Positions 1 to 44,421 of a stretch of DNA of 64,000 nt are shown one piece after another. A model generated the notes under the pieces. The model saw only the letters and a program-made list of their open reading frames with translations. It searched no databases and had not been told where the DNA came from. The stretch is from contig CM041202.1 in the NCBI GenBank assembly GCA_023078555.1, positions 3,964,022 to 4,028,021 on the forward strand. The letters are read 5' to 3'. The stretch is from Ulva prolifera. Taxonomy: Eukaryota > Chlorophyta > Ulvophyceae > Ulvales > Ulvaceae. Within the stretch, counting starts at the first letter, position 1. Every line of letters begins with the position of its first letter. The position numbers were made by a program, and so were the translations under genes.

Positions 1-2685
1 GTGAGGGCACGCGATGGAGATGTCGTTATCGCGATGCCGCGACTGCATGTCATTGACTACACATTCAATTTCATAAGTGGTCGTGTCCACAGTGGCCGAT
101 GACTTGGCAGCTTCAGGGCTGGTGGCGCATGCAACATCGAAGGACTCGTTGTAAGGTTTCAGCACAGAGAAGTGAAAGACATCATGTAGACCTAGGCGTT
201 GCAGCGTGGTCGGCAATGATATACGGGCAGCGGCCCGGCCCACTACCAGAATTTTACAGGGACCCAACCAGCGCGGAGTAAACTTCTTTCGGAGAGATGG
301 ATGATGCAGAGCAACCTTACGTATAGATAGCAGGACCAAGTCACCCACAGAAAAGGTTGGCCAAGCAGATTTCCTGTTGAAATCCGACCACATTGACTGC
401 TTGGCCTCTACCAGAGCTTGCTTTGCTAGGAAGTAGTACATGCGGTGCATCACGGCTGGAGCTGGTTGCTGATGCTGTGGCAATTTGAACGCAAGGGCTG
501 TGGGTGACAGTGGCGGAGTGATACGGTTCAATGAGAACGGCGTGCAGCCCGTGGTTGCCGACTTGGAGCTATTCATGCTGAACTCGATATGTGGCAGGAA
601 TGCATCCCAATCATCATGTGCAGGACCGATGAAATGCCGAACAGCTTCTTCCACAACGCGATTGTACCGCTCAACTTGCCCATTGGCTCTAGGATGGTAG
701 GAGAATGTCAGCTGCAATGTAATGCCTAGGTGATCACAAAGGGATGTGAAAATTTTATTGTTCCACTGCGTACCGCGGTCACTACAAATGCCAAGTGGCA
801 GGCCATAATGGGGGTATATGTGCTTGAAAAACAATGCAGCGAATCCGGGACCATTCAGAGTAGACACTGTGGGGATCAATCTTACCATCTTGCTGAATTG
901 ATCAACAAACACAACAATGCAATTGTGACCCGACGTGGAGTTAGGCAGCTGCGTGATCATGTCTACACTCACGACACTCCAGCACGCAGAAGGTACAGGT
1001 AGTGGGGACATGACTGCCTCCCGCTCCGACGGGGACTTCAGGGTCTGACAGCTATGGCATTGTGACATAATTTTTTTGACATCCTTGTGTATATCTGGCC
1101 AGTAGAATGAGTCTGTGATCAATGATGCTGTGCGAGAGACACCCATGTGTTCATGCCAGGGGTGTACGTGGTGCCACAACAGAATTTGCCGGCGCAAGTG
1201 ATCATGATCAGGGACAACAATCTTGTTCTTGTGCAGATGAATCTGGTGCTTAGGGTCGTAATGGTATGATGCAGGTGGCTCGGCAAAATCAGAATCATGT
1301 GCATAGCCACTACGCAATCGCTGCCAGAAGTCGTCCGCGTGCAGATCTAGAGTCAAGTATCTGTTGGATTGTTTCAGAAGCAGCTCTGCTTGTGAGTGCG
1401 TACCCACACGCTGTGCGTCGACTGCGCGGCCGTCACACACCAGGTCCTCCTGGTCGACCCAGTCCACCGCGGAAGCATCCGGCTGCGCGGTCGCTACGTC
1501 GTCCTCACGCGCGGGCTGTTGGTGGAGGGGTGAGGCCGAGGAATTCGGCCTCCTCCGCTGTAGGCGCGAAGTCAATGTCTGACATTGGAGATGGGGTGCG
1601 GAGGCAACCAGGAGCGGTCGCGGAGAACGGCGGCGGGTCGGCGTTGGCATGGGCCGGCGGGGAAGTGGGGATGGGGGCGGTGGCAGCGCTGGCGGAGATC
1701 CCGTTGGCATCAACACCGGGGACCGCTGAGACCCCAGCTGCTCGCCCATGCGGGGGCTGGACCCCGAGCTGATGGAAATCACTGATGGCGGCGGCTGCGT
1801 GGGCCGCCGTGGGTCCTGTGGCTGGGACAGAGGTGGAAATTGCGACTGGGAACGCAGGTCTGGCATGGGTGGGGACAGGCCGGGCGGGGGTGAACCGAAC
1901 TTCTCCCGTAGCCGGGAGTAGTCGCAGGGCTGGGGAGAGATTGTTGGCAACGTCTGGTGGTATGGGATGGCCTGATTCATCGGCGACATGCCAGATGATA
2001 TGGCCGTTGATCCAGTGCTGGCGATTGGAAGCTCGTATCCGCTTGGATCCGGGGATGGGGAAGAGTGGCATCTGCGCGCTGTAGCCGTGGTCAGACTTAC
2101 AGCCGGAAATGCATAAGACACTTGCACTGGAATGGCATTGCCCGCACGAGAGGCACAAGAAATGGGATGGTCATCATGCAGCTGCACTGTCATGGAAGGC
2201 AGGTGTGTGGCACGGGACACTGTGTCCGCCACCACGTTCTTGTCACCAGGCACGTACATGATGTGCCAGTTGATGCGGGACAGCGTCTCTACCCAACGCG
2301 CTTGCTTGTTATTCAAGCGTTGCTGGGTCTGCAAGTACCTCAGTGGATTATGGTCAGAGTGGACATACACGGGGTGGCCATTTTCCAGATAGCAACGCCA
2401 TTGGCGTGCAGCAAAAACAATGGCGCCCAGCTCTTTTTCAAAAGTGGCATGGTGGACCTCAGAGGAATTCATTTTTCGGCCTACCCATGCAATGGGATGT
2501 TGAGCTGCTTCATGGTCTTGCATCAAGACAGCTCCATAGGCTTAATCACTGGCATCTGTGTATACGCGGAAGGGCTGGTTGAGATTGGGATGGCGCAGGC
2601 CTGTGGCATTGATCAGAGCATGTTTGATGTCATTGAATGCTCGAGTGCATTGTTCAGTCCATGCGCTTTTTTTTGCCTTTGGCTT
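1..2685 (-). pseudogene. Gypsy 1 RNase H, integrase and C-terminal part
   Basis: Reading the minus strand from 2685 down, an RNase H domain is clear: a TDASDYG-type block, then HATFEKELGAIVFAARQW, then SDHNPLRYL (about 2620-2330). An Ala/Pro/Ser-rich stretch follows (about 2158-1500), which is unusually long for the link to integrase. The integrase has an HHCC zinc motif around 1190-1050 (HVHPWHEH, then CHSC). Its DDE core starts near 960 with an Asp in a D-M-I-T-Q-L-P context, followed by VDQFSKM and SDRGTQWN, and NGQVERYN for the Glu near 690. A chromodomain-like tail starts near base 50 and leaves the window. A frameshift separates this part from the RT block, near residue LSQPIPS. Confidence 0.82.
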
Positions 2686-3843
2686 TCATGCGCTCAAGCA
2701 GGGGGGCAGCAAGGGTGGGGAATTTCGGGATGAATCTGCGAAAATAGCCACCAAGACCCAAGAATGATCGGATGGTATTGGTTGACTTAAATCAGCCTCA
2801 GGCCATTGTTGCAACACTGAAACTTTGTGTGGGTCTGGCTTCACGGTATCTGCTGTAACAATATGGCCCAAGTATTTGACTTCTTGCATGGCAAATTGGC
2901 ATTTGACAGCATTGCAGAAAAAGTTGTGTTCATGCAGCCAAGTCACCACACGATCAAGATTGATGGCATGCTCCTCAGCAGTTCTGGAAATGATGATAAT
3001 GTCATCGAGGTATGCCAGGCAAATCTTGCCAATCAGTCCACGCTGAACCACGTGCATTGCTTGTTGGAAGACACTCGGTGCATTGGTAAGGCCGAATGGC
3101 ATCACCGTCCATTCGTACAGGCCATCAGGGGTGCGGAATGCTGTTTTTGGCAGGGATGTCGGGGCTTGTCTGATCTGGTGATATCCAGAAGCAAGATCCA
3201 ATGCAGAAAAGTATCTCTGGCCTTGCAATTTATCAAGCAAGGCATCTATGCGTGGTAACAGGTATGTATTCTTTACTGTGTTCTCATTCAGGTAGCGGTA
3301 GTCGACACACAGTCTCATTTTACCTCCGGGTTTGGGAGCAAAAAGGACGCTGCTTGCCCAAGGGGAGATGGACGGCTGAATCCAGCCCATGTCAAGCAAG
3401 TGTTGTACCTGCTTTTCCAGTTCAGAGTGTTCCAGTGGATTCAATCTGTACTGGCGGGCAGCACGCGGTCTGGTGCCAGGCAGATTCTCAATATTCATCT
3501 CAAAGCCTAAGGCTGTGGTATTTGGGGGTGCAGGCCCGAGCGTGCCTCCGGACTTGGAATGTTTGTGTACTATCTCTTGAACATACTGTGGGATGGTGGC
3601 TACATCTTGCTGGACTGGTGCTGGTACTTGCTGCTGGGACAGAAAACCTTTCTTTTTCGACGCCGCGCAGACATGCATATCGCTGGAAGGCTCGACGCAT
3701 GCATGTGCGGGTTTGACATGCACCACGTACAGAGGCGACTTACCACATTTAGCACGATTGACCATAGATTTCAGCTTACGGCTGGTGCATGCATACTCAT
3801 CTGATGTCCCCTGTGAAGCAGGTGTGCGTTTGGGTATGTGCAC
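2686..3843 (-). pseudogene. Gypsy 1 reverse transcriptase
   Basis: This open segment of 385 codons carries the gypsy RT fingerprint: VLFAPKPGGKMRLCVDYRYLN, FSALDLASGYHQI, FRTPDGLYEWTVMPFGLTNAP and the catalytic YLDDIII. A conserved KYLGHIV block follows. The frame is lost after VLQQWPEAD, where a frameshift replaces the expected RSFLGL-type motif, which can be seen in another frame just downstream. The YxDD active site is intact. The frame change means the copy cannot make a continuous Pol. It encoded the polymerase that copies the element's RNA. Confidence 0.9.
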
Positions 3844-3955
3844 GACATGCTACCAATCACGAGAATGCTTTCGGGGGCCAGCCTTACGGCCAGGCACGAT
3901 GATGCGAATGTCCGGATCATCAAACTCGAGCTTCATGTGCGTGACGGCAATCACA

Positions 3956-20867: not shown

Positions 20868-22808
20868 ACTACTCCCCCTGAAGTCCGCAGACTCACAGTG
20901 ATCCACTGGGGTAACAAGGCAATAGCACAGCGTCATGCTGGCTCAAATGAATCTTCAAGATCTTCTTTCAAAAGGGTCCTAAGGTCTTCGTCCAGACGTT
21001 ATTAAACAAACGGCTGAGGTCTTCTTCTTAGGCAAAACATAGCCTGAAGGAATAAATCCAACCCGGATCTACGGTCAAGCTCCTGGAGCAGCAGTAGGTC
21101 GACTTCATCATCAGAGTCCACTTTATGCTCCGCTGTAGCTTCAGAAATGTAGAAAGACACCGGGTAGCAAGATATCTCAGAACTCCTGGGGAACTTCTTA
21201 TACTTCTTTATTAATTGCTGATCTTCTGGCGCCAGCAGTACAGACTGCGGCAGCCACAGAGTAGAACCATCTTTGCTTACCACGAGATACCTCGCGGAGA
21301 TGTCCAGCAATGACTGTAAGTCAGCCGGGGTGCGGCCATGCCGTCGCCTGTCCAGCACCTGTACCAAAGGATTGAAGACAAGATGCAGTTCAATTGGCGG
21401 AACATCAGGATCAAATTCCCGATCTGATTCCACACAGGGCGAACGCAAACACTGAACATTGATCATAATGTGAATGCCTGAATAGGCATCTGGAAGCTGG
21501 ATGCGATAAGCATTTGGTCCGACTACTTCAGTGATAGAGAATGGTCCCACGAAACGTGGAAGCACTTGCGAACCTGCGTATCAACGCAGCGCACTCTCAG
21601 GAATGAAGAAGCAATCTTCACAGTATCACCAACCTGAAACGCGATCAAGAGTAGTGATGTTTTGTGGACAACAATCATTTGTCTGGAATGCTCTATAAAG
21701 CGTAGCCCCTGGCGCAGCATACTGCCACGCTGTCGAAGCCGAGCGCCAACTTCATGACACTCACGCGAAACAGACATCGAATCGCGCAATTCTCTAGGAG
21801 ACCATACAAATTTGAGTCGATGAGGGGTGAAAACCTGTTGCACTGTGCAGAGTGTTGTGGTATGCATACAAGAGGGAAGTAACAAGCTCTTCCGAGTCTT
21901 CTTAATGCTTGGACACGAATGCACGCAACATAAACAAGAATTTACGATGAATATTCTCAGTCAGACCATCCGTTTGAGGACGGTATGCAGTGGAATGAAT
22001 AGCTTCACAGCTATAGCGCGCGTAACACGCTTCATGCGAATAGCAGTCAATCGCGAGTCACGGTCGCCCAGATTGCAATCAGGCAGACCTACCACGACAA
22101 CACTTTCTTAAATCAATGAACTGCTGAGTGCTCATGTGCTTGGTGCATGGTAAGGCAATAGACCACTTCGTGAAACGATCTAGGATGGCGAGGTAGCCAT
22201 CATTACCGCACTTGGATTTTGGAAGACCGCATACCCAATCGAGGGTGATCCAGCCGAATGGTCGCCGGGGAATTGGCTGAGGGTGCAGCTCGGGGGTGGG
22301 CTGAGGCATCGACTCGCTCCGCTGGCAGATGGAGCGGCTCCGCTGGCAGACCTGCGTATGTACTCCTGGACGGCAGCTGACATGTCAAGCCAATAGAAAT
22401 ATGGACCAGAGCATGATTAGTCTTAGCATATCCAAAATGCGAAATGACAACCTATTTCAATGTCATGGTAGTCATGGATCAACTTGGCACGCAGGTTGCG
22501 GAAGAATGGGACAAACAGTCGATGCGACCCTCCACAGACGAAATAAACCAATATGTGTTTGAAGCTGAAGTCTTTGTAGCGGGAAAACGCGCTCTTGCAA
22601 TCATGCGCCTACCTTCCTTGGTGGTGTGCAGTCCCGCTGTAACTTCAGACAGGCCGGTGTCGTATGGCACACAAGAAGCGACCAGCATAAGACGCAGGTC
22701 GTCGCGCCTAGACAAACCGTCAGCAAATGAGTTGACAGCGCCGGGAACGTATTCAACCGACAGATTGAACCCTTACAGAAACTGCTGCCATCTGACCTGT
22801 CGAGGAGA
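20868..22808 (-). pseudogene. Gypsy 2 integrase half, decayed
   Basis: The minus strand from 22808 down continues the RNase H end (LSPRQVRWQQFL, stop, GFNLSVEYVPGAVNSFADGLSRRDD). An integrase follows: a zinc-region piece near 22400 (YWLDMSAAVQEYI), then the core PFGWITLDWVCGLPKS and YLAILDRFTKWS (22265-22150). Frameshifted pieces of the rest of the core lie at 21924-21523, and a C-terminal domain at 21565-21002 (RFVGPFSITEVVGPNAYRI...). Many frame changes and stops show an old copy. The tandem GCTCCGCTGGCAGA near 22320-22350 interrupts the zinc region. Confidence 0.8.
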
Positions 22809-22811
22809 CAG

Positions 22812-23170
22812 GTAGGTAGAGAAGGCAGGGTAGCCACCCAGCCCGCAATGTCACCGACCCCACTGAGCCACGAGAATAATGAGTCTAATGCATACCACAT
22901 GACGCCCATGCAAGTACCATCATAACGGTACGTCGACGTCGTACATGGCCATTATGACATGCAACCAGGAAGGTTCGTTCCTAGGACGACAAGACCACAT
23001 TGCAAATGGCACGCACTAATCCAGAGAGACACGCGCATTCACCATGGTAAGAGCTGTGTCGTCACGGTACTTAATACACATACGTGTGTTTGTTGTGAAC
23101 GTGACACAGAGTAGATGGGTGAACAACAGCGGACGTTTGTGCAAAGACTGCTGTAGCGTGGGTCGTAAGC
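22812..23170. other. 5' region of the HUH element
   Basis: These bases lie between the left border of the element and the start codon of its OTU-Rep gene and should hold its promoter and left terminal sequence. No inverted or tandem repeat and no clear TATA box were recognised. Confidence 0.4.
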
Positions 23171-25215
23171 ATGGATCGTCCTCGTGATACAGCGGAGACA
23201 GTGAACGCTCTGAAAGCGTGGTTGCAGAAAAGGCATTTGGTTGTGAGGAATATTGACGCAGAGAACTCAGGATATGATTGCTTTTTCGTGTCATTGAAGC
23301 ATGGCATTGGGAAGAATGTGATCGATACACTGAAAGATGAAGCGGTGGTGACGGTCGGTGAAATATTGGCCATGGATATTGCAACTCTGCGCGGGAGGGT
23401 CGTAGAGTATGCTGAAGCTATTTACAATCAACCGAACGATGATGATCACGATGTGCTGAAGGTAAGAGCAGCATCATGGTATTTGTTGAAGGCACAACAT
23501 GGTTGTGCAGGTATTTCAGGGCACATGCGCAGTTTCGTGTGCAAGCTGATGTCTGACATGATGTTGATCTGGTCGTATGGATATGCAGACACATCTATCG
23601 GTGAATTCTCGCGAGTTCATTAATGCGGATGTTGAAGAGTCTATCGATAGTCTGTTTGCGAAGTGGTTCACTGGAATGCGAAGGGGGGACATGGCCGACA
23701 ATCTGGCGGTCATTTGCGCAGCTCGAAGGTTTCGTCAAAAAATGTTCATATGGCAGCCTCCTACATCCGAAGGTTGGGACGCACGCGGCACCCGTCCAAA
23801 GGCGTTCCGACCGACGGTGTTCAACGAAAATGCACCAAATACGAAGCGAACATTTGTGTATATGGTGCAGTTCAATCTTGGTGTTGGACACTTTGAACCG
23901 GTCTTGCCTGCGGCAGGAAACTCCCACAGTCCGGGGCGATTCACAGCCATCGACAAGAACAGAGTCGGGATAGAAGGCTATGACCCAGTAATTGACGTAT
24001 CATACCGCACCACAGCCATGATCCAACGGGTGCGGTTGCAAGCTGTGACAACATGTGCACATGTTATGTTGCGTAACATGCACGTGAATGGAAAAACGTG
24101 CAGGAGAAACAGGACTTGATTGACAAATTGTTCCGCACCGAGCACCGACGTATTAGATGTTTGTCAGTGACATTCGGGAAACTGAAGGGGTCTTTGACGG
24201 AAGCCCAGATGGCAGTGCACCTTGAGTTTGCAAGAAGCATTGAAGAGTTTTGCGGCCGTGCAGCGTCGAATCTTGAGGGAGGTGATAAAAGGTTTCGAAT
24301 GCATATGCAAGGGATGTTCGAAATCAACATTGCGTCGGTTGCGGAAGCTCAGGATTGGATCAAGGAGTACATGCAGGCCGTCATGAAGGAGAATGAAGCC
24401 AACAACATCCGCATACATTGTCGGGTACGGTCATAAACACATATGGTGCATTGCAACAGTTGCAAGGTGTCAGTGTGGTGGTTGTGCAGATCCGGGATTT
24501 TGATGATAAGTTCACGGTGGAACGCGCAATCAACTATACTTTTAAAAATCATATGTCACGTGATTTCCGTGCCGTTCATTGTTGCAACATGACAGAACAA
24601 GACGGCATAGACTGTGCGGCATCATATTTACAGGTGGCTGGTCACAATGTGAACAAGAAGAATGTGGAGTTAACACCATTCAACTACTTCCACATTGTGC
24701 AGCGATGGGAGCACGCTAACGTGTATCCCATGAACGGTGTCATGAACGTGTACCAGGTGGTTCGCATCATGCTGCTTACCAATCATTATTGTTTGTCGTA
24801 CAAATGGGCATCTGGTAGCGCTGCCTTTGGCATACCACATGCTTCAGCGGAGGCTATGCGCAAAATTGACTTTCTGATGAGACGATGTCAGAATGTCATA
24901 TTTTTTTATGTAGTTTGTGCAATGACGGCAGGGAAATTCGGACCAGAAACAGCAGTAGGTGAAGCTTTACCAAAGCGTAAGACGTGCTTTGGCGAGATGT
25001 CTGCACAAGATGCAGTATGGTGTTCCAGGAAGATGATGCGTGGTATGGATAGCAATACGGAGCCCGAGTCAGTTCCAGTGGCTGTTGCTGACCTGCCCGA
25101 GGTAGCTGCACCTGGGATTCAGTTCGTTCAGGTTGATGAGGATCCACCTGCTGTTGACAATGTTGAGCCGGATGGCGATGATGGTAGTGATGCCAGTGAT
25201 GCTGAGGAGGGGTAG
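23171..25215 (+). CDS. OTU protease plus HUH/Rep endonuclease protein
   Basis: Four exons, 23171-23600, 23638-24029, 24104-24424 and 24490-25215, join without any stop. The introns are 37, 74 and 65 nt with GT-AG ends. The product is about 622 residues. Residues 25-260 resemble an OTU cysteine protease: the catalytic Cys37 in GYDCFFVSLKHG and the His near residue 227 in GVGHFEPVL. Residues 270-470 look like a Rep-type HUH nuclease: a strand motif RCLSVTFGK, then MHMQGMFEI (residues 339-347, His-x-Gln form as in circovirus-type Reps), then NYTFK with the candidate nucleophile Tyr397 in a Y-x-x-K motif. The C-terminal 50 residues are very acidic. The protein would nick single strands at the element ends for transposition. 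I know of no cellular gene with this pairing. The HUH assignment rests on motifs, not on a search. Confidence 0.75.
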
Positions 25216-25457
25216 GCAACATGCCAGGTGTCTATCTAATCTAAGTAGCTCTGTTGTAACACAGTAATGTTTGCGGTGGACAACATCATCAACATACTTG
25301 CGCATACATGTCATATGTATGGCAGTGAACATTGACAAAGAAAATGAAGTTTATTGCAGGACATTACACAACTTGGTTATTCCTTCCAACCAACTAGGGA
25401 CCACTTATTGCATATTGCATCTAGTCGATGGGTCGCAGTTGAAAACGTACACACGTC

Positions 25458-26674
25458 CTATTCCGGTGTGGATTGGGTTGGTGGGGCATCCTGGCGGGCA
25501 TTGTAACCGATGTTTGTTGCACTCGCAACAACAGCTGCACCGGTGGCTGTTGCACTGGCAACAGCGGCAGCACCACTGCCTGTTGCACTGGCAACAGGGT
25601 TTGCAGTGACCATAACGTTGGTGTGACCTTGCTGATTAACATGAAGTTGCACATGCGCTGCAGACACATTGGCAACGGTGCCCTGTGTCACAGACGATGG
25701 CGTGCCAACTGAACCTCTAGGCATCTTTGACATTGGCAACCCGAATTGGTGTGGCAATGTTCGTTTACCCTGTGAGGTGAAAAGGACTTCGTCATCCTCA
25801 TCGTCAGTATCATCTTCACTATCATTCAATATATCTTTTAATTTGTTCGCGAACTCATCATTGACTCGAGTCGAGTGAATACCTGGTCGCTCGATACCAC
25901 AGCCCGTGGCACCTGGTAGATTAGCGGGAATTTATCACCCCAAAACCTTGGGATTGCCTTGGCAAACCCAACTTTGGAGTTGTTGCGGCACTGTGGGTCC
26001 ACCACAATGCCAAGGTATTGTGTGACGATGTTGCGGAAGACAGTAAAAACCCCCACAGCATCTGCGGCTGCCACCTGCTGCATCTGCATGATGATGGCAT
26101 TCAGGGGACTAATCTGCTAAAATTACAATGATGGAATCGTTTAGTTTGAGGGAAAGGGGTACAACACCTCCGCCATTGATATACCAAAGTAGTGCAGCTG
26201 CATTACAGCCTGCAGCCCGTCAATGAAATTCTTGTTGATTTTATCATTCTCCCGAATAGGCTGCCAACCTTCACATGCTGACATGAGTGCCAACTGATAT
26301 TTGAATGTCTTGGGTCTGGCGCCCTGCTCATGCTTGTATTCCCGGCGAGCAGCTAAGAAGCTGGATAAAACCGGGTGCACGGGCCACGACTCTGGCACCC
26401 GGTCGCACAAGTTCGAGCGAACCTTGTAGGCGCCTTTAACTTCAAGGTCAATTGTGCTTTTCTTTTTCTTTGAAATCTTATTAACGCATTCATCTATGAC
26501 GTGGCTGTAAGCAGCGTCGTCAGAGAACATCTCGGGGATGATTTTGTCTGGTTTCACCCCCAAGGCACACAGATTCTCCCACCGAAAGAATGTTGGCAGA
26601 CAGTCGCCACGGAACTTGGCTGTGTGGTTGGCAAGTTCACGTAGCCTGTCTTCGCCCCCGGACATCTTGCACAC
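25458..26674 (-). CDS. Second gene of the HUH element, unknown function
   Basis: On the minus strand three exons, 26674-26171, about 26116-25883 and 25853-25458, join in phase without stops. The introns are about 54 and 29 nt (GTGTTG...TAGCAG and GTATTC...GATGAG). The product is about 377 residues. The N-terminal half is mixed charged and aromatic (for example FFRWENLCALGVKPDK). The middle has PRFWGDKFPLIYQVP. Exon 3 begins FANKLKDILNDSEDDTDDEDD, and the C-terminus is rich in Ala, Val, Gly and Gln. No family was recognised. It converges on the OTU-Rep gene with 240 bp between the stops and lies inside the same insertion, so it is probably an accessory protein of the element. The 29-nt intron is unusually short and could instead be a frameshift. 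Confidence 0.6.
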
Positions 26675-27211
26675 GTGTTTGTGAGTTGAAACAGAACAAG
26701 GACAGCGCAGGAAACAGAGAATTATGCCCGATAATATCTGAATGCGTTTCCTTTCCGGTGTATCTGCGACCGCTCCGGCGTGTCCCGGTGCAATGCGCTA
26801 TGTCGACGACCTGCCATCATCTCACAGTAGCTGCATCCATAGAGGTCACTGTGTGAAGCCCTTGATGGTCGCTCCCGTGCACTGCCGCACTGCTGTCAGG
26901 TGGCGAGTCGAACAAGTCGACGTGGCCACGAGGGTGCAGGCCGATCAGCATACATATGTGTCCTAGATATGCACTTGCTGAATATATTCAAAGCCGCTCC
27001 GTCCAGATTTTGATCATGCACGCGTACATAGTCAAGCGCGCGGTGATTGAGTGCTCATAGCTTGAGTATGGTGAGTATGTGTTTGCACACACGCATGTCC
27101 ATGAGCGTTGACAAGGGTAATATGACACTGCATGCATCGTTCGTCAAGCGGCGCGGCATGACATGTCATGCATGGTGTAAAATTATTATCAGCGGTCTCA
27201 CTGGCAAAGTC
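26675..27211. other. Right terminal region of the HUH element
   Basis: No coding segment is recognised. The segment should contain the promoter of the minus-strand gene and the right terminal sequence used in transposition, including the palindrome at 27156-27171. Confidence 0.4.
27156..27171. other. 16-bp perfect palindrome near right end of HUH element
   Basis: GCATGACATGTCATGC is its own reverse complement and lies 40 bp inside the right border. HUH transposons such as Helitrons carry a short hairpin near one end that acts as a terminator of rolling-circle transfer. A role here is inferred only from position. Confidence 0.45.
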
Positions 27212-27214
27212 AGA

Positions 27215-29216
27215 GCGTGTTAGCTTGCGACATGAAGTGTTGCAGAGGCCGATGGTCAGTGTTGCAAGTAATTGTGAATTCCGAGCTATACAATAGTGAC
27301 GCCATAACGCGAAGTGCCAACACAATAGCTAACGGCTCACGCTCGTGCACTGGGTAACTGTGTTCGCAATCAGCCAACTTATGCGCGGAAAACGCAACTG
27401 GTCGTCGACCAGTGAGTGTGTCATGCTCCAATGAGGAACCTACAGCGTAATCACTAGCATCGGAAAGTATATGGAAAGGGGATTCGGGATCTGGCCTTGC
27501 TAATACAGGCGCAGCAAGAATGCTGGCCTTCAGTTTTTGCAAAGCAGCTACTTCAACCTCCTCCCACCATCGCTAGGGAACATCGCTGCGTAACAAATTG
27601 ATTAGCAGCGCAGGAATGCGCGCATAATCTGCGATGTAGTCTCGTCAGAGACCGAATGTTCCTAGTAGCGAGTGGCAAGTCCTGCAGGACAGGTTATTGC
27701 TGCACTGCTGCAGCACGCTGGGGATTCACAAATTGGCCTGAGCCATCAACCAGATGCCCTAGGAACTCAATGGTATTCTGCAGCCATTCGCATTTGGAAG
27801 GCTTGACAAAAAAATGATGTTCTCTAAGACATTGAAGAACAGCGCGAAGGTGTATCAAATGTTCCTTTTCGGAAACAGAAAAGATACAAATATCATCAGG
27901 ATAGATTGCAATGAACGTCGCAACCGGAATAGTGCAGCCACTTGGTAGCGCAACATTTTCGCGAAACGTCTCATCTATCAAGCATTGGAACGTGCTAGGT
28001 GCACAACACAGACCCATCGGCAAAATGGTGAATTCATATTTGCCGTATGGAGTAGTGAAAGCAGTGTTGGATATATCTGCATCTCCGACCTGGACTTGAT
28101 GGAATCCGTCCGACAGGTCGAGTTTAGAGAAAAACTTCGCTTTCAACAGGCATGCAAGCAATTCAGAGATGCGAGGCAGTCTATAATCAATGCGATTATG
28201 CATCTTTGTATTGAGTGCCACATATGAAATGCGCGTGCGCCAGGAGCGCATTCCTGTGACTGGGTCAGGTTTCTTATGCACGAAAAACACGGGTACAGCC
28301 CAAGGGCATAGGCTGGGTTTGATCCATCCATTTCAACCTCAGCATCTTCATCTTGTATGAAAGGATGCAGGTTGCGCGCGTGCGGCTTTGCCGTGGGCGC
28401 GGTGTCGATGGTGTGCCCTATAACAGAGCCATCAGTGGCGTAGCGAATAGGCGGGAGACCTTCAGGGATCTTTGCCTTAAGAAAATCTGCATATTCCTGC
28501 AACAATGGAGCAGCCTTGGGATGGTCAGCTCCTTTGCCTGATGGCAAATCTGGGTCGCAGAGCTGTTGCTCTGGCAGTGCAACGCCTGCACACGCTTGCG
28601 CTGGATCAATGTCATCATTTGACGCAAGCGTTTTAGCGAAGGTATCAATGTTGCACAGCTCGATTTTATCACAGCATATGCTAGGGGATGCAGGGGCCTT
28701 AAAGGCCTTGATGCAACGTCGTTCACCACCGATATGAACCAACATGCAGCGTTTGCGCAAGCGCAATTGTGGTTCATGCTTAGACAGAAAATCTAAGCCC
28801 AAAATAACATCATAATCAGGTATATCGAACACCAGAAAGCGTTGCTTAACGGCCAGAGGGCCTATTCGCAACCTTACCTCTCGTGTAACACCGTCTGCAC
28901 TTGGTGTTGAATCGTCGGCCAGACGCGCGGGAGGAATATCCCGTGCAAGAACACTTACACCATGAGATTTAGCATTAGCAGATGAAATGAATGAGGCAGA
29001 AGCCCCGGGATCAACAAAAGCTAGGCCGTGTGCACCGGCAATAGTGCATTCGAAAGTGAGGAGGCGAGTACCAAAGGATGCTGCTGTCCTGAAGGCTGGC
29101 TTATAGGCCAAAAGGTCATCATCCTGTGGGTCCAGTGGCGCCCATTCTGGGCGAGGAATTGCTGGTTCCCGTTTGCGTGCCAAGAAACAAGGCTTTTTAC
29201 GGCCCATCAGCTGCAC
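27215..29216 (-). pseudogene. Gypsy 2 protease, reverse transcriptase and RNase H half
   Basis: The minus strand gives a protease region at 29216-28300 (LAFVDPGASASFISS as the active-site block, then DYDVILGLDFLSKHEPQL). RT is at 28290-27694 (RISYVALNTK, FFSKLDLSDGFHQVQV, FTTPYGKYEFTILPMGLCCAPSTFQ and IYPDD). RNase H is at 27542-27215 (FHILSDASDYAVGS, YPVHEREPLAIVLALR, TDHRPLQHFMSQANTL). The protease has DPG where D-S/T-G is usual, and RT has YPDD where the second residue is normally hydrophobic or Met, so both sites look mutated. Frames shift between protease and RT and between RT and RNase H. The frame stops at the HUH insertion. Integrase lies on its other side. Confidence 0.88.
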
Positions 29217-29237
29217 AAACAGAAGAAATGAAGAAAA

Positions 29238-29393
29238 GTCTGCGCCGAAGCGTTAAGAAAGAATAAGCTCTGCGCCGAAGCGGTACGAGCGGTCAGGCTC
29301 TGCGCCGAAGCGGTACGAGCTGGAATAAGCTTTGCAACCAAGCGGTGAGAGCCGGAATAAGCTCTGCGCCGAAGCGGTACGAGCTGGAAAGCC
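29238..29393. repeat. Tandem repeat, five units of about 30 bp
   Basis: Units share TCTGCGCCGAAGCGGTACGA and are spaced about 29-32 bp apart. The array stands immediately upstream of the protease region of gypsy element 2 in the sense direction. In the sense frame a unit encodes SYRFGAE repeats, so the array may be the remains of a repetitive gag segment. One unit is degenerate (TTTGCAACCAAGCGG). Confidence 0.75.
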
Positions 29394-38571: not shown

Positions 38572-41500
38572 CTACGTCTCCACTAGCTGGAGTTTATTAC
38601 GAACTTCTTGCAAGGCAGGTCCGGGCAGCACTTTAGTAAACACATCCGCTAACTGATCAACAGTGCCTACCCATGCTACCTTAAGTTCGTCCATCTGGAC
38701 ATATTCCCGCACTCGCAAGTGCCGCACACGAATGTGCTTGGATCTGTCAGTGGACACAGCATTAACAGCCAATATGTTGGCACTCTTATTGTCACCCCAC
38801 AGAGTCGGCTTATGTGGGACGAGTTTCAAATCGAGAAGCAACTGCTTCACCCACATCAACTCGTTGGCTGTTGCACTCATCGCAATGAGTTCAGCCTCTG
38901 TTGTATCCCCAGCCACTATACTCTGCTTCTTCGAACGCCAGAGAACACAGTTCCCATACACCCGAATAACCATACCAGACACGCTTTTCAGATCAGCAGA
39001 GTTCGCAAAATCTGCATCCGAATAAGCCTCTAACAAACACCCGTGTCCCTCAGAGCCTATAAACTTTATTCCTAAATTCTTTGTGGACTGCAGGTATCTC
39101 AGAACATGTTGCACGGCAGACCAATGTTCCTTTAGACTACTAGACATGTGCCGGGCCAGGGCATGTGCCACATAGCTCAGGTCAGGTCGTGTCACTCCTG
39201 CAATATACTGGATGCTTCCTACAACACTCATGAACCTGGAATGCTCAGCAGCACTGGCTTTTTCCAGGTCAGGATGCTCTTTCGCACTCCTTAGTTGTTG
39301 CCGCGGCACCAAGGGAGTGGGAGACTTGCGACAGTCAGACATACTGTACTTTTCAAGCAAGTTTCGAATTTTGTTTCGTTGTGTCATGATGATTGTTTTG
39401 GCCTTGCGATCACGCATGATCTCTGTGCCAAGTGCCCATGCAAGTTCACCTAAATCTCTGCCCTCAAATTTTGTGAGAATGATGTCGACAAGTTCTTGTA
39501 ACCCCGCAGAGCTACTAAATATGAACAAGTCATCGACCCATAAGAAAATAAAGCAGCGACCAGATGTTCTGACATACAGTCCGGGATCACTTTGTGCGCA
39601 CACAAATCCCATCTCAGCCAAGACCTTTATTAAAGCTTTATGCCACTCGCGAGCAGCTTGCTTCAGGCCATACAGGGTTTTATGCAATCTCCAGACACGT
39701 GCTGTCCCGTCAGTGAAGAACGGGGGCTGTTCAACGAACACTTCTTCTTCTAGCTCGCCATTCAGAAAAGCGCACTGAATGTCTATGTGCCTAATCTCTA
39801 AGTCTTCCTGAGCAGCAACTGACAGCAACACACGCAGTGTCGCATAACTACCGACAGGAGACCAAGTCTCAAAAAAGTCTACACCTTCTACCTGAGAAAA
39901 ACCACGAGCTACATATCGTGCCTTATACCGCTGAACCTCGCCAGCAGGCCCACGCTTGATCTTGAGCACCCATTTGCCCGAGATAGCCCGTTTGCCCGCA
40001 GGCAGATAGCACAACCCGAAGGTTCCGTGCTCACCCAGTGCATCTACCTCCTCCTGCATGGCACGCAGCCATGCATCCCTGTCAGCACTCGCGAGCGCTT
40101 CCTTCAAAGAAGGCATATCAGGGTCGGAGGCCTTCTGCTTCCTGGCGGCAGCTGCTCTGCGCGACCCACGACGCTGAGCATTCTGCTGCTCACCAGACTC
40201 CACATGCTGAGGCTTCAGGCCTGCACAGGACACTCCACAGTCAGCCGCGGCTGATGTGTCCTGATCGCAAGCTGAAGCATCCATAGCAACTACAACTGTT
40301 TCACTACTAGCAATGTCAGAGCCCGCAGGCTCATGCATTTGTACAGCTGCTACATCCGCAGCCAATGGAACAAGGCGTCTGCGTACAAGAGGATTGATTT
40401 TAATACGAGGTAAGGCAGCTGGAATGGCCCTCACCTCGTCAGGCAAATCAACCCCAACCGCGGCTGAGGGGTCCGGATCCTCTCCCCCTAATTCGGACCC
40501 GGTCTCCACCTCATCTGGCTCATCCTCCCAGAAGGGCCTCGGCGCCTCAGCTCCTCGCAAGGGCTGAGCAACTGCCCCCGCGCCAGATGCTGAGGCCGCT
40601 GCCGAATTACTCCCAGAGCGGACCCGCTGAGCCTCCAGATTCTGATGAGCCGCAGCTCTTTCATCATCTGAGACGGTGTAGTCCATGCGCTGTTCGTCAT
40701 CGTCGTCATAGATGCCAGGACTGTCATCATCGGACGGATCCTCCATGTCGTCATCAGACGCACTGACAGACATTCGAATGGGGAGCGCAACTTCTACACC
40801 AGGGTCGTGCAACACAGCATTGCGCGTAACAACATACCGCGCGGTGCGAGAGGGCGTGGCGACAGGATGATACACTTCGCCGGGAACACGAGGGGGAGCA
40901 GGGACGGCAGGTTGAGCAGCAGCTCTGGACATTGCACGCGTGCGATGCAAAGCTGTTCTGGCTATTTCCGGCGTTGCCCTAGCAGGGTCACGTCGGATAA
41001 TCTCCGCAGAGGAGCCAGCTCCAAATCGTGGAGAGTACGCAGTAGGATCAGGGTCAGGGTTGTCCTGCCGGAATGTCATTTCCATGACAGGAACCCTACC
41101 ATGGCCAGGGGGGGTGTGAAGCTGGTCACGCAGACGGCGCAACACTCCCCCATCATACGTGTGCTCTGCCGCGAAAGGAGGTACATCTGCGTCAGTCACA
41201 CGCTCACCCTCATCGTCCCCCTCGAAAGCAACCGTATAGGAGTTCGCAAACTCCTCAGGTTCCCTCTTGTCCACAACGGCGGACGCATCGTACTTGCGTA
41301 CGTGCCGGATCATCTGATCCGCAGTGCACATCACCTGACGCACAACAAAAACCCTACCCCCAGGAACGTCCTGGGCGTACACACGCTGCATGCTGGGGCC
41401 CAACCCAGCCCCGACCCAGTATGCAGGCACACCCCGCGGGGACAACTTCCGCAGCTTGTCATCCCTAGGGTATGCATACACTTCAACCCCCCATGGACGC

Positions 41501-44130
41501 TGCTGCCGCAGCAGATCTTGGAACACCTCAACGGAGGTGTCTCGGAAAAAGGCCATATAAGGAATGATATCCTTATCACAAGACCGCACCAAAAACTCAT
41601 CTAATTCTGTCGTCGCAAGCAACTTGTACTTGCGTTTCTCCTCATCCCTCAACTTATCGCGCTCGGCCTTTTTCATGCGCTTACCTTTCCCCAGGCTCTT
41701 CTCAGCTTCGTCAACGTCCGCAGACGCATTGACAGCATGCTGAGCTTTCAGGCCCTTGAGGATGCTCGCCAGTTTGTCATGGTACAATGCCGATGATGGC
41801 GTGAGATTGTGACCATGGACAACGCTGGCGAGGCATTCTATCCACAGGAACAGAGGCAGGCCGCTCGCGAGCAGCACAACACGGAGTGACTCAAAGGCCA
41901 CTCCGATCCTCCTCTCGATCATGCCATTACAGCGATGAGCGGCTGTGGGGGTCAAGCGGTGAGTGATGCCACGACGCTGGAGGTAGAGCTTTAAGGCCGC
42001 GACCATAAACTCTCCCCCTTTGTCGGTGTGTAGGATGCGCACACCCGGTTCACCTGGCTTCACCACATTCACCCGAATGCGTTCGATAATATAAGAGATC
42101 ATGGCCGCAGCCTCACTCTTTTTGCGCAGACCTACCACGAAAGTATAACGGGTAAAGGCACACATCACAAACAAAACATATTTCACACCACCAATTCCTA
42201 CCGGAGAGACAGGACCAGCTAAATCGGCGTGCAGTTGCTCACCAGGCCACTTGGCCTGACCCATGAGCTCACGATCATTGGCAGAAAACTTGCCCGCAGG
42301 CACTTTGCCAATTCTGCAGCCGTGACATCGATTCCCTAGTGGCTCGGAATCGACATCCAAATTCAAATGACCATAAAAGTCACTGTTAGACTGCATGCGC
42401 TTGAGGACCCAATTTGACTGGTGGAAAGACAAATGTGCTATAAAAGCAGGTTCCAGCAAGTATGCATCATATGGGACCTCAGCTCCCCCAGCATTGGGTC
42501 GCTTCAGGTCAACGGCCGCAACCGCCACATGATGCCACTGCTGTTGATCCTCAATAACTGAGGTCGGACTGCTCTGGTTAGACCAGACTACCCCCCTATT
42601 GACAGGCGCACCGACGAGAATGGGTTTCGTATCTACCGCCATTTTAAAGGCAAAAACAGGATGACCGTCTACATCTAGTTCCTGAAATTTGACGTTATCC
42701 TCTACGCCGGTAGCCATATCACCCAGACCAGGGACATATAATACATTCCTACGCGTGTCTAGGAACATTTGCTCTGATCTAAGACCCATCGTGCTGAGCA
42801 AGTTGTACGGACATTCAGGAGCATAGTAAACACCAGGGATTTCCACATCCAGTGGGTGCGTGTTCCCATGCTTGTCCACATAAGCACCCAGGTTCACCTG
42901 AATGGTTCCCCTACCCATGATAGAAAGCTGCCCTGGTCCCGCGAGATTGGCAACTTTCTGACACGGGCCGTACTCAGTGAACATTTCCCGATTTCCTACT
43001 ATATGCATGTCCGACCCACTATCAACAATGATGTTCCACGGCATGGACGCGTCCGGCTGTGGATACTTGGCAGGCATTTCAATAGTGCAAACATCTCTGG
43101 CCGCAGCCTGTTTGCGTTGGGGGCAGTTCGCACGCAAATGTCCCTTCTTCTTGCAGAAGAAACAGGTCCTGGTCTCCTCGCGAGGAGCCTGGCCAGCTGC
43201 GAGAGCAGCGACCAAAGGGCCGTCACCACGGTGCTGCTTGCGCCAGCCATGGCCTGGTTTGCCCGCGGGCGCCCCAGACCTAGCCTGCAGCGACCGCTGT
43301 TGTTTGAGCAAATCGGCATGCTCAGTCAAACGGGCTATTATCACATGAGGGGAGGAGTGTTGAACTTCGCCGCGCACAGCGTTGAACTCTTCCCCCACCT
43401 CTAACAGTTTCAATCGAAGCCATCGCTGGCCCACATCGGCACCTAGTGCCTCCAGTTGAGTGTACACACTCATCACCTCACCACAATATGTCGCGACATC
43501 TTTATTGTGTTGTGACAAAGAATTGAACCGACTCCACAGTCTGTGGATCTCGGCTTCAGTGCTAGGTCTGTACTTGGCAGTCAAGTAAGACCATGCTTCA
43601 CACAAATGTGACATGCGATAGACAGTCGTCCTATCCGCGTCAGGCAAAGACATTAGGACCTGTGTCCTCGCCCTAGCATGAACACGCTGTTCGTCCGCAG
43701 ACGGTGCGTGCTGCAACAAATGATCTAACTCGAACTGACCTAACCACAAAAAGACTTTCTGTTCGTACGCAACGAAACTTTCAGTCTTGTAATTCCAATC
43801 AGGCAATTTCCCTTTAGTCAAATCAGGTTCGCTACGTCCGCGAGATGCGCGCAGCGCCTCGGTTAACGTCTCGAGTGATATGAGTGACTCAGCGTGACCA
43901 AGATCGTCCACAGCATGAGAGGAAAAAGGCACCTGTTGACTGCTCTGCCCAGTGTGGGAAGAGGGTCGTGGCCGGACAATTCGGCCGCCCCGGAGCAACA
44001 TACCCGCAGGCTGTTCTCCGTCAGGGAGCTGCTGGTCAGCGTCCCTGTCGACGAGAGGCTGCTGGTCAGCATCGTCTCGCCTCTCTTCGCGAAGAGAGTT
44101 GGCGTTGGAGTTTGCGTTCGAGAGAGACAT
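38572..44130 (-). CDS. Copia A Gag-Pol polyprotein
   Basis: One uninterrupted frame of 1852 codons holds all copia domains in order. Gag occupies residues 1-330 with a knuckle CFFCKKKGHLRANC near 320. The protease has VDSGSDMHIV near 372. Integrase has an HHCC domain at about 560-605 (HLSFHQ...CHGCRIGK) and a core with LHADLAGP (about 633), HTDKGGEF (about 703) and GMIERRIG (about 737). A long acidic, low-complexity stretch covers about 1100-1330. RT spans 1370-1600 with ARGFSQVEGVDFFETWSPV and the active site WVDDLFIF (usually YVDD). RNase H is at 1700-1835 (AYSDADFANS, TTEAELIAMS, GDNKSANILA). Gag and Pol share one frame without a visible shift or stop, as in many plant copia elements. It could be active. 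Confidence 0.96.
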   Translation of the reverse strand: MSLSNANSNANSLREERRDDADQQPLVDRDADQQLPDGEQPAGMLLRGGRIVRPRPSSHTGQSSQQVPFSSHAVDDLGHAESLISLETLTEALRASRGRSEPDLTKGKLPDWNYKTESFVAYEQKVFLWLGQFELDHLLQHAPSADEQRVHARARTQVLMSLPDADRTTVYRMSHLCEAWSYLTAKYRPSTEAEIHRLWSRFNSLSQHNKDVATYCGEVMSVYTQLEALGADVGQRWLRLKLLEVGEEFNAVRGEVQHSSPHVIIARLTEHADLLKQQRSLQARSGAPAGKPGHGWRKQHRGDGPLVAALAAGQAPREETRTCFFCKKKGHLRANCPQRKQAAARDVCTIEMPAKYPQPDASMPWNIIVDSGSDMHIVGNREMFTEYGPCQKVANLAGPGQLSIMGRGTIQVNLGAYVDKHGNTHPLDVEIPGVYYAPECPYNLLSTMGLRSEQMFLDTRRNVLYVPGLGDMATGVEDNVKFQELDVDGHPVFAFKMAVDTKPILVGAPVNRGVVWSNQSSPTSVIEDQQQWHHVAVAAVDLKRPNAGGAEVPYDAYLLEPAFIAHLSFHQSNWVLKRMQSNSDFYGHLNLDVDSEPLGNRCHGCRIGKVPAGKFSANDRELMGQAKWPGEQLHADLAGPVSPVGIGGVKYVLFVMCAFTRYTFVVGLRKKSEAAAMISYIIERIRVNVVKPGEPGVRILHTDKGGEFMVAALKLYLQRRGITHRLTPTAAHRCNGMIERRIGVAFESLRVVLLASGLPLFLWIECLASVVHGHNLTPSSALYHDKLASILKGLKAQHAVNASADVDEAEKSLGKGKRMKKAERDKLRDEEKRKYKLLATTELDEFLVRSCDKDIIPYMAFFRDTSVEVFQDLLRQQRPWGVEVYAYPRDDKLRKLSPRGVPAYWVGAGLGPSMQRVYAQDVPGGRVFVVRQVMCTADQMIRHVRKYDASAVVDKREPEEFANSYTVAFEGDDEGERVTDADVPPFAAEHTYDGGVLRRLRDQLHTPPGHGRVPVMEMTFRQDNPDPDPTAYSPRFGAGSSAEIIRRDPARATPEIARTALHRTRAMSRAAAQPAVPAPPRVPGEVYHPVATPSRTARYVVTRNAVLHDPGVEVALPIRMSVSASDDDMEDPSDDDSPGIYDDDDEQRMDYTVSDDERAAAHQNLEAQRVRSGSNSAAASASGAGAVAQPLRGAEAPRPFWEDEPDEVETGSELGGEDPDPSAAVGVDLPDEVRAIPAALPRIKINPLVRRRLVPLAADVAAVQMHEPAGSDIASSETVVVAMDASACDQDTSAAADCGVSCAGLKPQHVESGEQQNAQRRGSRRAAAARKQKASDPDMPSLKEALASADRDAWLRAMQEEVDALGEHGTFGLCYLPAGKRAISGKWVLKIKRGPAGEVQRYKARYVARGFSQVEGVDFFETWSPVGSYATLRVLLSVAAQEDLEIRHIDIQCAFLNGELEEEVFVEQPPFFTDGTARVWRLHKTLYGLKQAAREWHKALIKVLAEMGFVCAQSDPGLYVRTSGRCFIFLWVDDLFIFSSSAGLQELVDIILTKFEGRDLGELAWALGTEIMRDRKAKTIIMTQRNKIRNLLEKYSMSDCRKSPTPLVPRQQLRSAKEHPDLEKASAAEHSRFMSVVGSIQYIAGVTRPDLSYVAHALARHMSSSLKEHWSAVQHVLRYLQSTKNLGIKFIGSEGHGCLLEAYSDADFANSADLKSVSGMVIRVYGNCVLWRSKKQSIVAGDTTEAELIAMSATANELMWVKQLLLDLKLVPHKPTLWGDNKSANILAVNAVSTDRSKHIRVRHLRVREYVQMDELKVAWVGTVDQLADVFTKVLPGPALQEVRNKLQLVET

Positions 44131-44421
44131 CCTGCATCAGGACAGATGGTTGTTTGTCGCGCGCAGCAACTAACCAGTGGGATTGCTCGCAAGCAAACAG
44201 GTTGAGAAAACAAACGAACGCGTTCGCTCTTCTCAGCGCTGATCATTAAAACAAGCTTCTCGAATTGTGTCTAACAACAATATGCTACGAGAGAGCTAAA
44301 TGATTCCTGCGCTTTTGACCGCAGTCTGAGCGCCGGCGGAACAGTGGAATGCCCGCCGTGTCTGCGCGCAGACATTGGCCGACGGCTTTCCTGAACAAGA
44401 CCATAAACAGACATAACGCTA

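Follow-up and report, generated by a model that had tools for sequence, protein, structure and literature searches.

A 4,407-bp insertion in the genome of the green alga Ulva prolifera (assembly GCA_023078555.1) is probably a full-length member of a divergent family of Replitron-like HUH transposons, a judgement that includes a nicking-and-joining mechanism of movement. It occupies positions 22812..27218 (no strand assigned; ends ±2 bp) of a 64,000-nucleotide stretch of contig CM041202.1 (3,964,022 to 4,028,021, forward strand), hereafter the window, and carries a spliced gene, A, and a second, convergent gene, B. Its layout, ends, repeats, motif conservation, selection and near-identical copies were all observed in this analysis. 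Eukaryotic HUH transposons are few and their mechanism is little known. With two distant families in a single genome, alongside near-identical copies, short nonautonomous partners and empty sites that can be read, it becomes possible to test directly where the element is nicked, what rule governs its targets, and whether B and the N-terminal region of A are needed.

The limits of the insertion were set by comparing its ends and by four uninserted copies of the host site. Approximately 70 bp of the left end and 80 bp of the right end recur elsewhere in the genome, and 9 other left ends (one incomplete) and 7 other right ends were compared. The element splits, in its RNase H region, a Ty3-type long terminal repeat (LTR) retrotransposon (21005..29252, minus strand; annotation only). 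Four uninserted copies of this retrotransposon (L027-L030) are contiguous across the site, reading GACAAGTT in three and GACATGTT in one, so that the element ends at about 22812 and 27218. The empty host sites and the end comparison thus bear out the inserted two-gene element proposed in the sequence-only reading, and they correct its limits of 22809 and 27211.

Both terminal regions are shared with nonautonomous copies. The 5′ region (22812..22880, plus strand) is 82-96% identical to nine other genomic places and contains a predicted hairpin (fold z = -2.1) and CGCAATGT at 22844-22851; the 3′ region spans 27136..27220 (plus strand), its final GT (27219-27220) being target sequence. The window copy closes with CAGAGCG TGT, and the seven other right ends with CAGAGCGCAATG. 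A pattern built on the left end was found at nine places in the genome, the window included, and one built on the right end at eight, the window excluded; neither reversed pattern was found anywhere in the genome. The eight pattern-matched right ends finish in CAATGT, except for one that finishes in CAATGG. Near the 3′ end, at 27156-27171, lies a perfect 16-bp palindrome, GCATGACATGTCATGC, whose centre recurs in several nonautonomous copies.

The gene A model was derived from enumerated splice sites and from comparison with relics of the element and with a second, distant family (family 2) elsewhere in the genome. All exons lie on the plus strand. Exon 1 (23171..23461) begins with the start ATG and holds the putative catalytic Cys codon at 23279; exon 2 (23589..24029) holds the putative catalytic His codon at 23889; exon 3 (24104..24424) encodes TFGKL (24170) and HMQG (24302) and contains the Replitron_HUH match; and exon 4 (24490..25215) encodes YTFK (24535), a conserved C-terminal region and an acidic tail before the stop. 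Intron 1 (23462..23588; 127 nt, GTAAGA...TGCAG) is supported by family 2, which is uninterrupted there and aligns across the joined window frame, and by a relic in which a 144-nt gap with a GTAAG donor falls at that position. Support for intron 3 (24425..24489; 65 nt, GTACGG...TGCAG) comes from a 48-nt gap in another relic and from an intron that family 2 is inferred to have at the corresponding position. The intron 2 acceptor agrees with family 2, and at least three candidate donors exist; exon 2 may therefore end at 23963, 24029 or 24044, giving an intron of 140, 74 or 59 nt and a gene of 570, 592 or 597 codons. Three predicted introns joining a single stop-free frame, as first proposed, are borne out apart from this donor, as is the order of the Cys/His pair, HMQ and YTFK, and the earlier length of about 622 codons is replaced by these three values.

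Profile searches connected the A proteins of both families to Replitrons. Replitron_HUH (PF21859) was the best Pfam match of each and spanned the motif histidine and tyrosine in both: for the window protein, exon 3 on its own gave E = 0.0012 and the joined protein 1.8e-4 (22.3 bits), and family 2 gave 3.6e-5 (24.5 bits). As a control, the profile was searched in six frames (E ≤ 10) against the whole genome (88.9 Mb) and 14 control genomes; it returned two matches in the genome, both from the window family, and none in the controls. Family 2, with its intron-split domain, escaped this search.

Alignment of the two A proteins, which are 29% identical, revealed three invariant blocks: S-x-T-F-G-K-L, R-x-H-x-Q-G-M and Y-x-x-K. 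H-x-Q and Y-x-x-K each occur just once in either whole protein, at positions that align, with the putative catalytic tyrosine at Y367 (592-residue form) aligned to Y390 of family 2. Neither of the two A proteins, nor window B, contains a Walker A motif, and no helicase family of Pfam matched A or B. The Pfam top match, the aligned motifs, the end repeats and, decisively, family 2 together support the assignment to a Replitron-like HUH transposon, which the sequence-only reading had suggested.

The genome comparison that had been proposed for finding copies and ends yielded nonautonomous copies, relics, family 2 and the recurring ends. Four nonautonomous copies are complete (L016, L017, L018 and L025; 1,306-1,433 bp), and their middles show no match to the window element. 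Two further places, L019 and L020, look like nonautonomous copies split by later insertions, and the remaining places are partial. Searching the genome with protein A returned relics of its own family together with the distant family 2 on C3 and C7. These two family 2 copies are 99.83% identical over 4,142 bp and then pass into unrelated flanks on both sides. C1 holds a third copy, with 95.7% identity across 3,338 bp; it has stops at places where the other two have none. Predicted splicing of the C3 copy gives a 677-residue A protein without stops, and the layout of family 2 is that of the window element, with gene A and a convergent gene B.

Near-identical copies point to recent activity of both families. 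In the window family, L017 (C7) and L018 (C2) are reported to share 100% identity across 1,308 bp, and judging from such sequence identity the family has been recently active as a family. The earlier claim of recent activity, based on neither gene having a stop, thus holds for the families and not for the window copy itself, whose 3′ repeat is 3 bp short.

Pairwise comparisons of the window element with its relics, in which alignments with frame breaks were included, further revealed constraint on gene A. The ratio of non-synonymous to synonymous substitution rates (dN/dS) was 0.10 and 0.12 for exon 1. Exon 3 had changed at 85% of synonymous and 12% of non-synonymous sites relative to the C6 relic, and exon 4 at 70-92% of synonymous versus 11-39% of non-synonymous sites relative to older relics (92% versus 17% in one comparison). 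The H-x-Q motif is kept in both relics that cover the position (C1:10647041 and C6:1743352), and the relics on C1, C6 and C7:5021807 retain Y-x-x-K, which the one at C7:4192320 has lost. Most of gene A is, by these counts, under purifying selection relative to the relics.

Gene B (25458..26665, minus strand) runs from an ATG at 26665 to a stop at 25458-25460, and homologues lie in the same place in family 2 and in relics. The convergent gene of the sequence-only reading is therefore present, but not as a single open frame: three frames must be joined across at least two introns, one near 26206-26068 and one between 25931 and 25838, whose exact sites are approximate. When two small peptide sets were compared, the family 2 homologue, also encoded on the opposite strand, showed 30.8% identity over 78 residues (E = 9.6e-11), and a whole-genome search with protein B returned the same two family 2 places on C3 and C7, weakly (E = 0.026). 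Stretches of B with a finite dN/dS gave 0.29, 0.35, 0.39 and 0.50, with 1.07 in one short stretch, and the comparison with family 2 gave 0.37. No match to B was found in Pfam; an NCBIfam search gave none, and the PHROGs search gave a single match of unknown function (E = 0.099). On these comparisons B is a conserved partner. Its retention in both families suggests that it is probably needed, and a role as a DNA-binding or assembly partner would be a guess. Elsewhere, at C3:2277279-2278366 (minus strand), a further B homologue (31-33% identity; open frames of 313 and 117 residues) possibly represents a third family.

The ends of both families share a short direct repeat, CRNAATGT, with one copy close to the 5′ end and the other at the 3′ terminus. 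Family 2 carries the exact 8-mer CGGAATGT at nucleotide 27 and at its 3′ terminus; the window family (family 1) carries CACAATGT or CGCAATGT (CRCAATGT) at nucleotide 33 and CGCAATGT at its 3′ terminus. Of 58,990 window positions, 0.21% have an 8-mer repeat with similar spacing. The 5′ repeat is preceded by a predicted hairpin (z = -2.1 in the window copy, -2.1 in L017 and -1.5 in family 2), and the fold before the 3′ end has z values of -2.4, -0.4 and -0.2, respectively. No terminal inverted repeats of at least 7 bp were found at the very ends of the window copy, L017 or family 2; subterminal inverted repeats of 7-10 bp occur in L017 and family 2. In the nonautonomous copy L017 (1004-2309), one is a 10-bp repeat, ATAATAATTT, at nucleotide 62 counted from the 5′ end and nucleotide 35 counted from the 3′ end. 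The C3 and C7 copies of family 2 differ by an extra GT directly after the 5′ CGGAATGT repeat, perhaps a trace of a nick-and-join step.

Empty sites allowed the target to be read at three insertions. At the window site, GT is present in all four empty copies, and a 2-bp duplication there is possible. At L019, the one empty copy that was read, L074, has GGGAT^GTGAAC versus GGGATA-element-GTGAAC in the filled site; this target is itself a repeat, with at least 32 copies at 89-97% identity spanning the joined flanks among the 40 of 166 candidates that were scored. Three copies span the L017 site; the two that were read lack the GT there. We read these as insertion just 5′ of a GT without classical duplication at two of the three readable sites.

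Several results weigh against the assignment to Replitron-like transposons with a nicking-and-joining mechanism. Both Replitron_HUH scores, 22.3 and 24.5 bits, lie under the curated cut-off of 28.5, as does the match of exon 3 alone. The whole A protein found no scoring relative among 5.8 billion proteins, and a PDB sequence search for HUH found no relative, its sole match being an antibody (E = 0.89). A single-sequence model of exon 3 reached a predicted local distance difference test score (pLDDT) of 47, without a confident fold. Relative to the youngest relic, on C1, dN/dS was 0.98 for exon 3 and 0.57 for exon 4, on few changes. The 3′ direct repeat of the window copy is 3 bp shorter than that of other copies (CG, then TGT), and the empty copies of the L017 site have TC where GTGTG follows the element in the filled site. 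Finally, the target duplication amounts to 0 to 2 bp (a possible GT at the window site, with no clear duplication at either of the other two), in place of the 2-8 bp given for Replitrons in a review (PMC10741241).

The comparison with known systems follows from these features. The element shares with Replitrons a putative HUH domain matched by PF21859, though under the curated cut-off, the lack of terminal inverted repeats, short direct repeats at or near its ends, and a photosynthetic host. The genome has 38 matches to the light-harvesting family PF00504 and none to the phycobilisome linker, as expected of a photosynthetic host that is probably not a red alga with phycobilisomes. Replitrons, a recently described group, have a single catalytic tyrosine (Y1) and no fused helicase, and the Ulva element likewise combines a single Y-x-x-K tyrosine with no helicase match. 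A review (PMC10741241) gives Replitrons no terminal inverted repeats, direct terminal repeats of 5-11 bp, lengths of 0.9-4 kb and target duplications of 2-8 bp. Set against that description, the element differs in its slightly greater length (4.1-4.4 kb), in its N-terminal OTU-like fusion and in its convergent second gene. A transposon with an HUH-OTU fusion was not reported in the titles and abstract openings of the literature searched, a set that did not include the founding Replitron description (Craig, PNAS 2023, doi 10.1073/pnas.2301424120).

Helitrons, by comparison, carry a Rep fused to a helicase and use two tyrosines. The element could alternatively be a Helitron or Helentron relative, that is, a rolling-circle element that lost its helicase and took its OTU-like part from a Helentron. 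Insertion beside an invariant dinucleotide with no clear duplication, and a hairpin that may precede the 3′ end, are Helitron-like and would fit such an origin, but A has a single Y-x-x-K tyrosine, neither A nor B has a Walker A motif or a helicase match, and Pfam prefers Replitron_HUH, with no Helitron family up to E = 10. Also in favour, Helentrons encode OTU-type proteases (PMC4067079, PMC5148889), which makes Helentron/Helitron2 a comparable group of rolling-circle HUH elements. In PMC4067079, however, these proteases are described as additional open reading frames. The group has a Rep fused to a helicase and often to an endonuclease, whereas the searches here turned up no helicase, and the OTU-like region forms one predicted protein with the HUH domain. 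We regard a Helitron or Helentron origin as improbable.

A capture scenario appears even less likely. The replication proteins of CRESS-DNA viruses carry motifs of the H-U-Q and Y-x-x-K types, and A might on that likeness be a captured or endogenised CRESS-type replication gene within an unrelated cut-and-paste element. Protein A has no Walker A motif and hence no superfamily 3 (SF3) helicase, terminal inverted repeats and a classical target duplication are lacking, and the A-plus-B layout and the end motif are the same in two distant families; two pattern-limited scans of viral contigs likewise found no viral relative. All of this speaks against capture, to which we assign a very small probability. 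No relatives were found in prokaryote genomes, nor in phages with the N-terminal region as the sole query.

The nature of the N-terminal region of A is more evenly balanced. At 33% identity between the sequences compared, the two families keep G-x-D-C-x-F, G-D-x-A and G-V-G-H-x-E-P in the same order, with the Cys and His blocks placing C37/H198 in window A and C56/H226 in family 2. We take this block order to be the OTU pattern, and the OTU protease of the sequence-only reading has its support from that motif order. A homologue search with the two-sequence N-terminal alignment returned three proteins: P0001, one residue different from the family 2 exon over the letters compared; P0002, a 280-residue protein of the Joint Genome Institute (JGI); and P0003, whose match covers 55% of the query and has 62% identity with the window protein. 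Both P0002 and P0003 keep the G-x-G-H-x-E-P block, and their coverage does not reach the Cys block. Profile and structural searches gave the OTU claim nothing: Pfam listed no OTU family for any of five sequences up to E = 10, the PDB sequence search had none, and the five-sequence model was of low confidence (pLDDT 37).

These blanks favour a rival that concerns this region only and stands apart from those for the whole element, namely that it is another fold, whose Cys and His are conserved for other reasons. The shared order of the Cys, G-D-x-A and His blocks at 33% identity, and the recurrence of the His block in P0002 and P0003, count against another fold, which we hold to be slightly less than an even prospect; the OTU protease itself we place at about even, from its motifs. 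The top PDB match of the region, NAD synthetase (6kv3; E = 0.0011), was judged probably a chance match because it is short and lacks the His block.

For the Replitron-like transposon we infer a mechanism as regards nicking, cleavage point, strand, copying mode, work in trans and the role of B. The product of gene A would be the transposase, composed of a cysteine-hydrolase-like N-terminal region (possibly OTU), a single-tyrosine HUH nickase marked by TFGKL, H-U-Q and Y-x-x-K, and a conserved C-terminal region that lacks a helicase motif. This protein would most likely nick one strand at two points, AAT^GT in the 3′ repeat and the 5′ end. One strand would then be peeled off or copied using host replication, raising the copy number, and the freed strand would be joined just 5′ of a target GT. 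The same protein may also move, in trans, the 1.3-kb nonautonomous relatives that have the same ends.

A bolder proposal, which we put forward tentatively and consider rather unlikely as a whole, is that the two families form a distinct branch of eukaryotic HUH elements. Such a branch would combine a fusion of nickase and OTU-type deubiquitinase, an obligatory convergent gene, no target duplication, and a GT that completes the CRNAAT^GT site, and it would add a third type of organisation to those of Helitrons and classic Replitrons.

Two other mobile elements lie in the window. A second Ty3-type element occupies 1-3849 (minus strand), with reverse transcriptase, RNase H and integrase domains. 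At 38575-44136 (minus strand), an apparently intact copia-type retrotransposon consists of a single 1,854-codon frame with gag, integrase and RVT_2 matches.

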